Part shown: positions 40,297 through 43,933 of the stretch, piece by piece
Layout: each line of letters starts with the position of its first letter
Position numbering within the stretch: the first letter of the stretch is position 1
From: Deltaproteobacteria bacterium HGW-Deltaproteobacteria-22
GTDB taxonomy: Bacteria > Myxococcota_A > Polyangia > HGW-17
DNA: 51,731 nucleotides
Direction: 5' to 3'
Assembly (NCBI GenBank): GCA_002841825.1
Contig: PHAZ01000002.1
Span: 1-51,731, forward strand
Notes under the pieces: model-generated
The model's database searches: none
What the model saw: the letters and a program-made list of their open reading frames with translations, nothing else
Told to the model about the DNA's origin: nothing
Translations under genes and position numbers: made by a program

Positions 40297-40742
40297 TCTA
40301 CCTTCTGCTCTTCATCGGCATACCGATTGCCGAAATCTATCTGCTGGTGCAGGTGGCAGGCCGGATCGGCTTCGGTCTGACGCTGGGCCTCGTCATCCTC
40401 ACCGGCGTGGTGGGGATGGCCTGCGTCAGGCATCAGGGCGCGCGTGTGCTGTCGCGACTCAACCAGGACCTGCAGGGCGGCCGCATGCCCGCGGGGGCCC
40501 TCACCGAGGGGGTTCTGCTGCTGGCTGCGGGCCTGCTGCTGATCACGCCCGGTGTCATCACCGACGCGGTCGGTCTGCTGCTGCTGGTTCCGCCGATCCG
40601 GAAGGCTGTGGCGTGGGGGTTCGGAAAACACTTTGCGAAAAAGATCCGCTTTGTGCAATATCCGGGAGCACCGGATGCCTTTGGAGGCAGCGGTGATGGG
40701 GTGATCGAAGGTGACTGGGAAGAAGAAGACTCCGAAAAGTGA
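40293..40742 (+). CDS. fxsA: FxsA family membrane protein
   Basis: LIYLLLFIGIPIAEIYLLVQVAGRIG...PGVITDAVGLLLLVPPIR; TTG start overlapping the purH stop (TTGA). Confidence 0.85.
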   Translation: MIYLLLFIGIPIAEIYLLVQVAGRIGFGLTLGLVILTGVVGMACVRHQGARVLSRLNQDLQGGRMPAGALTEGVLLLAAGLLLITPGVITDAVGLLLLVPPIRKAVAWGFGKHFAKKIRFVQYPGAPDAFGGSGDGVIEGDWEEEDSEK

Positions 40743-41823
40743 AAAGCAAAAGGCCCCCCGGAAGGCTGAAAGCGCCTCCCTGGTGCCGGTGAGCGCTCCG
40801 CTGGAGATCGACGACCGGGAGGTCGAGTTCGAGGCGGAGGCCGAGACCGAGGAGGAGATCACCGTCAGTCCGGAGGACATCCTCTCGTCTGCACCGGAGA
40901 CCACCGAACTCGACGAGGTCGCGATCCTGCCCGCGGTGGACGATGACGAGGTCGCCGGCCTGGTCCGCTACGATCCGGTGCGCGCCTACATCCAGCAGAT
41001 CCGTCGCTACCCGCTGCTGACGCCCGACGAGGAGCACGACGTGGCCACGCGGTATGTCCGCACGCGTGACCCGCACCTGGGACGGCGCCTGGTGACGTCG
41101 AACCTTCGCCTGGTGGTCAAGATCGCCCACGAGTACAGCCGGGTGCACCAGAACCTGATGGATCTGGTCCAGGAGGGCAACATCGGCCTGATCCAGGCCG
41201 TTGAGAAGTTCGATCCCGAGCGTGGCGTCAAGTTGAGCACCTATTCGTCCTGGTGGATCCGCGCGTACATCCTCAAGTATCTGCTGAATTCATGGCGCCT
41301 GGTCAAGGTTGGGACCACGCAGGCGCAGCGCAAACTGTTCTTCAACCTGCACAAGCAGCAGGAGTTGTTGCGCGAGCGCGGCATCCTGCCCACGCCCCAG
41401 CTGCTGGCCGAGGCCCTGGACGTTTCCGAGCGCGAGGTCAGCGAGATGCAGAAGCGCATGGCGGCCTCCGATCTGAGCCTGTCGACGCCGCTGCGCTCCG
41501 ACGAGGACGACGGCCGCACCCTGATGGACACCATGAGCGACGGCCAGGGCATCCCTGACGAGGTCGTCGCGGCCGAAGAGCTGCGCGCCCTGGTCTCCGA
41601 GAAGCTGCATGCCTACGCGGCCCGCCTCAAGGGCCGGGACCTGGTCATCATGCGCGAGCGCCTGCTCTCCGACGAACCGATGACCCTCAAGGACATCGGC
41701 GACCGCTACGGCATCAGCCGGGAGCGCGCCCGTCAGCTGGAGAAGCGCCTGATGAACCAGTTGCGCGAGTATCTGACCACGGAGCTTGGCGACAACGTGG
41801 TCGTCGCATTGGGGTTCGAATGA
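40711..41823 (+). CDS. rpoH: RNA polymerase sigma-32-type factor with acidic N-terminal extension
   Basis: QRKLFFNLHK RpoH box; region 2 NLMDLVQEGNIGLIQAVEKFDP; GTG start. Confidence 0.9.
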   Translation: MTGKKKTPKSEKQKAPRKAESASLVPVSAPLEIDDREVEFEAEAETEEEITVSPEDILSSAPETTELDEVAILPAVDDDEVAGLVRYDPVRAYIQQIRRYPLLTPDEEHDVATRYVRTRDPHLGRRLVTSNLRLVVKIAHEYSRVHQNLMDLVQEGNIGLIQAVEKFDPERGVKLSTYSSWWIRAYILKYLLNSWRLVKVGTTQAQRKLFFNLHKQQELLRERGILPTPQLLAEALDVSEREVSEMQKRMAASDLSLSTPLRSDEDDGRTLMDTMSDGQGIPDEVVAAEELRALVSEKLHAYAARLKGRDLVIMRERLLSDEPMTLKDIGDRYGISRERARQLEKRLMNQLREYLTTELGDNVVVALGFE

Positions 41824-42689
41824 AGTTCGTGCACGAACCCCATCCCGAGGGCGTCCTGTATGTGGTCGCCACGCCCCTCGGGAACCTCGACGACCTCTCG
41901 CCGCGGGCCCGCGCCGTGCTCGAGTGCGTGGACCTGATCGCCGCCGAGGACACCCGCGTGGCCCGTCACCTGCTCCAGGCCCTGGGCCTGCCCAAGGTGC
42001 CCGTCATCTCCTCCTTCGAGGGGAACGAGGCGCGCCGGGCCGAGGAGATCGCCCGCAGGCTCTCCGAGGGAGCCGCGGTGGCGCTGGTGACCGACGCGGG
42101 CACCCCGTGCATCTCCGACCCCGGGGACCGCACCGTGGCCGCGGCCCGCGAAGCCGGCGCCCATGTCATACCCATCCCGGGTCCGAGCGCGGTCACCTGT
42201 GCCCTCTCGGTCTCGGGTTTCCCCGGTTCGCGCTTCCACTTCGAGGGCTTCCTGCCGGTCAAGGGTCGCGACAGAAATAAACGTCTGACGGAAATTTCCA
42301 CCCTGGATGTAACGGTCGTGCTCTACGAGAGTCCCCACCGCATCCGTGAAACACTGCACGATCTGGCCCTGATTCTCGGAAACGACAGGGAATGCGTGCT
42401 CTGCCGGGAGATCACCAAAAAGTTTGAAACGATCACCCGGGGGACCCTCGGAGATCTGGATGCAAATTCCAGTGAGAGTGAAATCAGGGGTGAATTCACG
42501 TTGGTGCTCGGACCGGGTCGCCGCACCGGTGAAAAACCTGAATTTCCGGCTTTGGAAAACGAAATTACGCGGCTCCGGTCCCTGGATCTTCCGGTGAAAA
42601 CAGTCGCAACCATCCTGGCTCCATATGCAGGTATGTCGAAATCGGAAGTCTATGAAATCATTCTGAAATTCGAAAAAGAACACCCATAA
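41820..42689 (+). CDS. rsmI: 16S rRNA (cytidine1402-2'-O)-methyltransferase
   Basis: LYVVATPLGNLDDLSPRA, AAEDTRVARHLL, VTDAGTPCISDPG; ATGA overlap with rpoH. Confidence 0.95.
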   Translation: MKFVHEPHPEGVLYVVATPLGNLDDLSPRARAVLECVDLIAAEDTRVARHLLQALGLPKVPVISSFEGNEARRAEEIARRLSEGAAVALVTDAGTPCISDPGDRTVAAAREAGAHVIPIPGPSAVTCALSVSGFPGSRFHFEGFLPVKGRDRNKRLTEISTLDVTVVLYESPHRIRETLHDLALILGNDRECVLCREITKKFETITRGTLGDLDANSSESEIRGEFTLVLGPGRRTGEKPEFPALENEITRLRSLDLPVKTVATILAPYAGMSKSEVYEIILKFEKEHP

Positions 42690-42722
42690 TTACAGGGACA
42701 ATAAAATTTTTCGGAAAAATAC

Positions 42723-42751
42723 TTGACGGGGCGGTGGGACTGGACTATAAA
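42723..42751 (+). promoter_or_regulatory. Strong sigma70-like promoter TTGACG-N17-TATAAA
   Basis: One mismatch in each hexamer, 17-bp spacer. Confidence 0.75.
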
Positions 42752-42757
42752 ACCATC

Positions 42758-42975
42758 ATTGGGAGCGAGAAAGAACCTCTTGGAGAAGAGGTTGCTACCA
42801 CGAGGCTGTTACTTCAGAGGAGATTTTGACATATCTCTGGGTTGCGTGAGCAACCTATCCCGAACTTACCCCGGCCCGGTTAGCCCTTTCCCGCCAACAT
42901 TCACATCACCGTTTCCACTCTCCTCTGAAGCGGTAAATTCTTTTGAAGGGCTGGGCCGGGGTTGCCTTTCTTTTA
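42758..42975 (+). ncRNA. Candidate structured ncRNA / attenuator with pseudoknot topology
   Basis: AACCTCTT-GGAG-AAGAGGTT (42774-42793); CTTCAGAGGAGA (42812-42823)/TCTCCTCTGAAG (42919-42930); GGTTGC-GTGA-GCAACC (42840-42855); CCCCGGCCC..AGCCCTT (42869-42888)/AAGGGCTGGGCCGGGG (42946-42961); ends in CCTTTCTTTT. Confidence 0.65.
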
Positions 42976-42982
42976 GACGGTG

Positions 42983-43933
42983 ATGACGCAACAACGCTGC
43001 ATGGTGACCGAACCGATGGCCGGATGGCGGGTCGAAAAGATCTGTTCCGGTCTGTTTCCGGGTCGAACTCGTCCCCAATGGCAGATCCTGATCGACAATG
43101 GAATGGTCAAGGTGGACGGTCGTCGGGCCCGACGCGGCGACAGGCCTGCGGCCGGTGCGGTGCTCGAGATCCTCGAACTCCCGCCCGAGGCAGACGTCTG
43201 GACGCCCGCCTACACTGACCCGGAGATGATCCGGGTGATCCTGCGCACGCCGCGGGTCATGGTCGTGGACAAGCCGCCGCAGCTTCCCACGTTGCCGCTC
43301 ACCCCCGGGGATGCTCCCACCGTCGCCGGCGCGCTGTTGGCCGCCGAGCCCGGGATCATCGGGGCGCCGCCGCGGGAGGCCGGCATCGTCAACCGGCTCG
43401 ACAACGACACCTCCGGCCTGATCGTCGCGGGCATGGACCCGGGTGCACAGGAGCGGCTGCGGCAGCGGTTCGCCTCACACCGCATCGAGAAGACCTACCG
43501 GGCGCTGGTGCACGGATGTTTCCCGGAGAAACCCGTGTGGCTGACAGGCCGGGTCTTCACCCTGGGCACGCAGCGCGTGCGCTACGAGCCCGGCGAGGGT
43601 CACGACGGTCAGATGGCGATCTCACTGGCCACCCGCCTGTGGGAGGGCGGAGGTCTCTCGCTGGTGGAGGTCGTCACGCGATTCGGACGGCGGCACCAGG
43701 TTCGCGTCCAACTGGGGCACGCCGGTCATCCGATCCTCAACGACGGACTCTATTCGTCTGCACCGACTCTCCCGTTCGAAGGTCATTTTCTGTGGGCCTG
43801 CCGCATCGCCTTCGCCGATCCCGAGAACGACCTGCCCCAGGTTGTCGGGTCGCGTTTTCTGCCTGCGTCCTGGCTCGGGTTCGCCCAAACCATCGGCTGC
43901 GGCGACTTCTTTGAGGGTGTGGAAGCGTTTTAG
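42983..43933 (+). CDS. RluA-family pseudouridine synthase (S4 + catalytic domain)
   Basis: IVNRLDNDTSGLIVAG; GRRHQVRVQLGHAGHPILND. Confidence 0.9.
   Translation: MTQQRCMVTEPMAGWRVEKICSGLFPGRTRPQWQILIDNGMVKVDGRRARRGDRPAAGAVLEILELPPEADVWTPAYTDPEMIRVILRTPRVMVVDKPPQLPTLPLTPGDAPTVAGALLAAEPGIIGAPPREAGIVNRLDNDTSGLIVAGMDPGAQERLRQRFASHRIEKTYRALVHGCFPEKPVWLTGRVFTLGTQRVRYEPGEGHDGQMAISLATRLWEGGGLSLVEVVTRFGRRHQVRVQLGHAGHPILNDGLYSSAPTLPFEGHFLWACRIAFADPENDLPQVVGSRFLPASWLGFAQTIGCGDFFEGVEAF

Follow-up and report, generated by a model that had tools for sequence, protein, structure and literature searches.

A new structured RNA family with two interlocked long helices, probably an independent small RNA gene, between rsmI and an RluA-family gene

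Analysis of the 290-bp gap between rsmI and a gene for an RluA-family pseudouridine synthase revealed that it houses a structured RNA and its promoter, and that this RNA represents a new family that is not in Rfam. The RNA occupies the 42753..42972 region on the (+) strand of the window (the whole 51,731-nt stretch of DNA analyzed here, from the genome designated G000), and comparison with its relatives indicates that it is very probably an independent new RNA gene. Copies were identified in eight genomes, which represent five genera and two families of a single order and include G001, the MAG HGW-Deltaproteobacteria-17 (matching contig PHBF01000206.1). The preliminary description had proposed a structured RNA of unassigned family that has its own promoter and helices that interlock, a proposal now supported by the lack of an Rfam match and by conservation and covariation in relatives. 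The features of the locus are as follows.

41820..42689, + strand: rsmI (16S rRNA C1402 2'-O-methyltransferase; TIGR00096, 244 bits), the upstream neighbor, outside the RNA
42700..42722, + strand: UP-element-like AT-rich stretch AATAAAATTTTTCGGAAAAATAC, 5' of the -35 box, identical in G001
42723..42728, + strand: -35 box TTGACG, with TTGAC invariant in 8/8 copies
42746..42751, + strand: -10 box TATAAA, after a 17-nt spacer; hexamers the same in G001
42753..42972, + strand: RNA gene, the longest run identical to G001 in 4.6 kb; predicted transcript ~42757-42974
42774..42793, + strand: hairpin 1, AACCTCTT(GGAG)AAGAGGTT, 8 bp; variable, being weak in G004 and absent in G005/G007
42812..42823, + strand: strand A, CTTCAGAGGAGA; a contiguous A/A' helix of 12-14 bp in 7/7 distinct homologs
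42819..42838, + strand: local hairpin P2 (42819-42824/42833-42838), which competes with A/A' over strand A
42840..42855, + strand: hairpin 3, GGTTGC(GTGA)GCAACC, within the A-to-B loop; a hairpin with covarying pairs occurs there in homologs
42869..42888, + strand: strand B, CCCCGGCCC-[GGTT]-AGCCCTT, with a 4-nt bulge
42889..42918, + strand: G-poor, C/U-rich linker from B to A', 28-35 nt across all homologs
42919..42930, + strand: strand A', TCTCCTCTGAAG, pairing with A
42946..42961, + strand: strand B', AAGGGCTGGGCCGGGG, pairing with B
42962..42974, + strand: tail TTGCCTTTCTTTT, conserved, with a CCYUYCUUUU-like make-up in all homologs
42980..43933, + strand: RluA-family pseudouridine synthase gene (PF00849; TIGR00005 under cut-off), the downstream neighbor, outside the RNA

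Most of the elements proposed earlier were recovered in the window sequence. The claimed promoter, TTGACG-N17-TATAAA, is present at 42723-42751, is conserved in relatives and is by its sequence of the sigma-70 type; the UP-element-like stretch ahead of it is recognizable in G003, G004, G006 and G005/G007 and not in G009. Likewise, the perfect 8-bp hairpin with a GGAG loop corresponds to hairpin 1, the ~8-bp hairpin with a GNRA-type GTGA loop to hairpin 3, the 12-bp A/A' helix to 12 perfect pairs (42812-42823/42919-42930), and the ~16-bp B/B' helix with its 4-nt bulge to 9+7 pairs (42869-42888/42946-42961). The observation that the downstream rluA-like ORF lacks a Shine-Dalgarno sequence was also borne out, and this ORF starts ~18-21 nt past B'. 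The suggested pairing of a 5' AGAAAGAACC with a 3' GGTTgcCTTTCT fared worse and was not seen in G003, G005, G006, G007 and G009. The tail at 42962-42974 is a probable intrinsic-terminator U-tract, although a terminator scan did not flag it, the U-tract lying 5-9 nt past the stem. The predicted fold of 42752-42982 has an energy of -81.1 kcal/mol (z = -2.85; 0/200 shuffles as good), as given by a nested prediction in which A/A' and B/B' cannot appear together. We also considered a four-way-junction helix, P0 (TTGGGA 42759-42764/TCCCGA 42858-42863), and rejected it, an equivalent being clear only in the 5'-domain folds of G000 and G006.

The boundaries of the gene are outlined by the comparison of G000 with G001. 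Over the 4.6 kb aligned, the two genomes are identical for 220 nt, 42753-42972, from just past the -10 box to the U-tract; the flanking rsmI and rluA genes are 92.4% and 86.9% identical, with differences mostly at third codon positions, and the promoter carries four differences, all of them in the spacer, leaving the hexamers untouched. The identical block fits the expected transcript from its start to the U-tract and has the appearance expected of a strongly constrained RNA gene. Recent local recombination is another reading of the same block, but it would need an accidental agreement with the transcript ends. The second-longest identical run of the alignment (124 nt, 40623-40746) spans the end of an fxsA-like gene and the start of a sigma-32-like gene, and possibly reflects a regulatory element or overlapping coding constraints. 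This sigma-32-like (RpoH-type) sigma factor gene (40711-41823) directly overlaps the start of rsmI, an adjacency seen also in several relatives.

The Rfam comparison and the comparison of homologous regions both favored a novel RNA. At the gathering threshold, Rfam 15 gave no match over the whole window, and at a relaxed threshold (E up to 10) the Infernal scan of the locus returned chance matches only. In the homologs no match covered the RNA, a fragment matching RNase P at 21 bits in L008 being located away from it, and literature searches found no description of the RNA. The homologous rsmI-rluA regions, in turn, preserve the helices with covariation. The arrangement of rsmI, promoter, RNA and rluA-like gene is also found in G001, G004, G006 and G007, and in G003 the RNA and the rluA-like gene come after an apparent rsmI end located at the edge of a contig. 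Using covariance model R1, built from six copies with the B/B' helix only, we found two copies outside its training set, at G005:C551:1885-2043 (E 3.5e-14) and at G009:C140:4466-4633 (E 0.0018), the latter in a genome that belongs to another family of the same order. Model R2, in which these two copies were added to the R1 set, revealed no further convincing copy in the order's other genomes, in 322 genomes of the class or in 386 genomes of the phylum, the large searches having used strict filters under which distant relatives could be missed. A match in G012 C169 (E 0.35) fell in what inspection by eye suggested to be coding sequence and was dismissed, and a contig scan with the rluA-like protein identified one close named relative only. 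Sequence conservation among the homologs is confined to the tail and to short purine/pyrimidine motifs.

The architecture itself is shared by all copies. Each displays the order A-B-A'-B' with an A/A' helix of 12-14 bp, a B/B' helix of ~15-17 bp and near-constant spacing: the start of A precedes B by 49-61 nt and that of A' follows B by 28-35 nt, and the loops measure 37-48 nt (A-B), 28-35 nt (B-A') and 8-16 nt (A'-B'). For A/A', the probability of the contiguous helix is ~0.0015 in the window sequence and 0.0005-0.0025 per copy (dinucleotide shuffles), giving a Fisher P of ~6e-13 over six copies that are not fully independent because G004 and G006 share a genus. This contiguous-helix test was run after, and in place of, a total-duplex shuffle test, which adds up many small helices and for that reason gave weak values in some homologs (P 0.003-0.17). 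Two-sided changes occur at 9/11 A/A' pairs, a count that leans towards structure because the alignment was fitted by hand. For B/B', compensatory changes were found at 7/16 pairs; 90.6% of the cells are paired, and 15 cells carry two-sided changes vs 5.6 expected from shuffles (0/500), counts that lean towards the model because the alignment was fitted to its structure. The structure-free MAFFT alignment A2 gave the same picture for this helix. In its outer nine pairs, 100% of cells are paired and five pairs covary, and sliding the partner strand by one column lowers the pairing to ~60%. Duplex predictions place a bulge of 2-5 nt on the 5' strand of B/B' in all copies. When strands were swapped between copies, own partners usually formed the strongest duplex, with exceptions within one genus. 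Taken together, comparative analysis supports both helices, and the gene that carries them, well.

The interlocked order raises the question of whether A/A' and B/B' coexist. By our estimate the loop lengths sterically permit coexistence, and we somewhat favor a pseudoknot over mutually exclusive folds. Every homolog also permits a local hairpin that takes up strand A in part or entirely, and freeing A from P2 is calculated to cost 4-14 kcal/mol, whereas A/A' returns 17-24 kcal/mol before any pseudoknot penalty; the RNA may therefore be poised between two states. Our working model, for which we consider the case about evenly balanced, describes an Hfq-independent sRNA of ~215 nt that forms a long-stem pseudoknot with its own terminator as the closing element, acts in trans and probably offers A' and the linker as its contact surface. 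Transcription from its own sigma-70-type promoter would yield the structured RNA, in which hairpin 1, P2 (with part of A) and hairpin 3 would fold first, during transcription. The emerging A' would then invade P2 to form the 12-14 bp A/A' helix, after which B' would pair with B and, together with the CCUUUCUUUU tail, terminate transcription. The expected end product is a pseudoknot of two long helices and a G-poor, pyrimidine-rich linker. In the P2 state, the CUCCUC-like A' and the linker would be exposed, free to bind a protein or to base-pair with mRNAs at purine-rich sites resembling Shine-Dalgarno sequences; formation of A/A' would hide them. The CUCCUC-like sequence that A' has in most copies makes such sites a plausible guess, and since the linker sequence varies between genera, no fixed seed is evident. 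We propose only tentatively that the RNA is a trans-acting regulator working through A' and the linker. The fuller picture of an order-confined sRNA family, in which the terminator doubles as a stem of a long-stem pseudoknot and P2 vs A/A' acts as a bistable, Hfq-free switch in trans, is likewise possible and rather doubtful.

The Hfq-free aspect of the model draws on the genomes themselves. An Hfq-dependent sRNA would have Hfq in the same genome, and Hfq (TIGR02383) was found in 0/13 genomes of the order, with positive controls; its absence has been reported for myxobacteria too (PMC5684412). The RNA might instead serve as a protein scaffold or sponge, titrating an RNA-binding protein such as CsrA via its hairpins. 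Hairpin 1 carries a GGAG loop in G000/G001, GGA motifs recur, and CsrA is encoded in G000, G001, G002, G004, G006 and G009. However, hairpin 1 and its GGAG loop are not conserved, and CsrA was not found in the RNA carriers G003, G005 and G007, so titration of CsrA cannot be the general function. A sponge of the CsrB/RsmZ kind would combine repeated loop GGA motifs with the presence of CsrA, a combination that the family does not display. These observations bear on CsrA; the scaffold or sponge reading as a whole, other proteins included, we regard as unlikely. Across the order CsrA is patchy, being not found in G003, G005, G007, G008, G010, G011 and G012.

A cis-acting leader of rluA is slightly less probable still. 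Here, B/B' would serve as a terminator or mask the start codon, and P2 vs A/A' would set readthrough, perhaps under the control of the pseudouridine synthase. The position of the RNA agrees with such a role: rluA lies 18-142 nt downstream in G000, G001, G003, G004, G006 and G007, it starts ~18 nt past B' in G000/G001 without a Shine-Dalgarno sequence, and the RNA stays before rluA in all family members found to carry it, except G005. Moreover, complementarity between the linker and the rluA start is found in G000/G001 (-20.8/-21.2 kcal/mol, 0/500 shuffles) and in G006 (P 0.002), yet G003, G004 and G007 lack it, and we rejected the pairing as a general feature, strong as it is only in G000/G001 and G006. 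In the window it involves 42904-42912 (CATCACCGT, in the linker) and 42977-42985 (ACGGTGATG, at the rluA-like start), and it extends to 11 nt in G001.

Two genomes argue against the leader. In G009, the RNA with its promoter (TTGACA-17-TAAAAA) lies between a vWA-type ORF, which ends just upstream, and a convergent gene on the opposite strand, and no same-strand gene follows closely 3' of it. In G005, promoter and RNA are both intact and lie ~1 kb past rsmI, with a truncated rluA start behind them; the intact copy of rluA is on a separate contig, where it retains only A', B' and the tail and has lost the promoter, A and B. The G005 contigs come from a MAG in which misassembly is possible, and the G009 case is independent of it. 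The 3' part of the RNA and the rluA start are duplicated in G005 (L072 on G005:C551 and L073 on G005:C596), both near ankyrin-repeat genes, which suggests recombination or misassembly. With the RNA standing alone in G009 and uncoupled in G005, it is therefore best viewed as an independent gene and not as an rluA leader. The earlier suggestion of a leader for the downstream gene, in which B/B' would terminate and A/A' antiterminate, is accordingly left unsupported. A cis-leader or riboswitch would always lie upstream of, and co-oriented with, the gene that it regulates, as the RNA in G009 and G005 does not; its own promoter, conserved boundaries and survival apart from its neighbors are those of an independent small RNA gene.

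The remaining explanations are very improbable. A degenerate housekeeping RNA could be imagined, in that the helix order P2-P4-P2'-P4' of RNase P RNA is formally the same as A-B-A'-B'; against it stand the missing Rfam match, the canonical RNase P RNA found elsewhere in 6/8 family genomes (not found in G000, an incomplete assembly, or in G005), the canonical 6S RNA of the same genome at G000:C305, with no RF00013 match at this locus, and the lack of any tRNA or tmRNA in the window by ARAGORN. The earlier remark that no conserved motifs of RNase P RNA, tmRNA or 6S RNA were seen agrees with these results (no RF00010/RF00013 match). Two 6S RNA matches each were observed in the relatives G010 (C108) and G012 (C11, C669). 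Equally implausible is a chance arrangement, pseudogene or small coding gene: an ORF (42723-42983, 86 aa) covers the region, but the homolog alignments are rich in indels that are not multiples of three, the helices covary, and the 220 nt identical between G000 and G001 are without the third-position differences of the flanking genes.

With its covariance model and defined boundaries, the family of this independent RNA gene enlarges the RNA repertoire of a lineage with few characterized small RNAs and no Hfq found. Its interlocked helices of 12-14 bp and 15-17 bp raise the question of whether an intrinsic terminator can form part of a pseudoknot or be controlled by an upstream helix. Among known systems, Pxr of Myxococcus xanthus (PMC5684412) is alike in being a structured sRNA with its own gene in a deltaproteobacterium that lacks an Hfq homolog; it has been described as a series of three stem-loops, SL1-SL3, with no mention of a pseudoknot (PMC5684412), and is set apart by this description from the two long interlocked helices found here. 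The 6S RNA (RF00013) resembles our RNA in size and in having its own promoter, but it forms a single long hairpin with a central bubble, which the RNA here lacks, as it lacks an RF00013 match. Bacterial RNase P RNA (RF00010) shares, through P2/P4, the A-B-A'-B' order but its model gives no match here. Pseudoknot-like folds ahead of genes also occur in the E. coli alpha-operon leader and in other attenuator leaders. Most members of the family described here are similar to these leaders in placing a pseudoknot-like fold before a gene for an RNA-acting protein; unlike them, the RNA stands in G009 without that gene and in G005 is separated from it, contexts which indicate that an apparent 5' leader may prove to be a separate gene.
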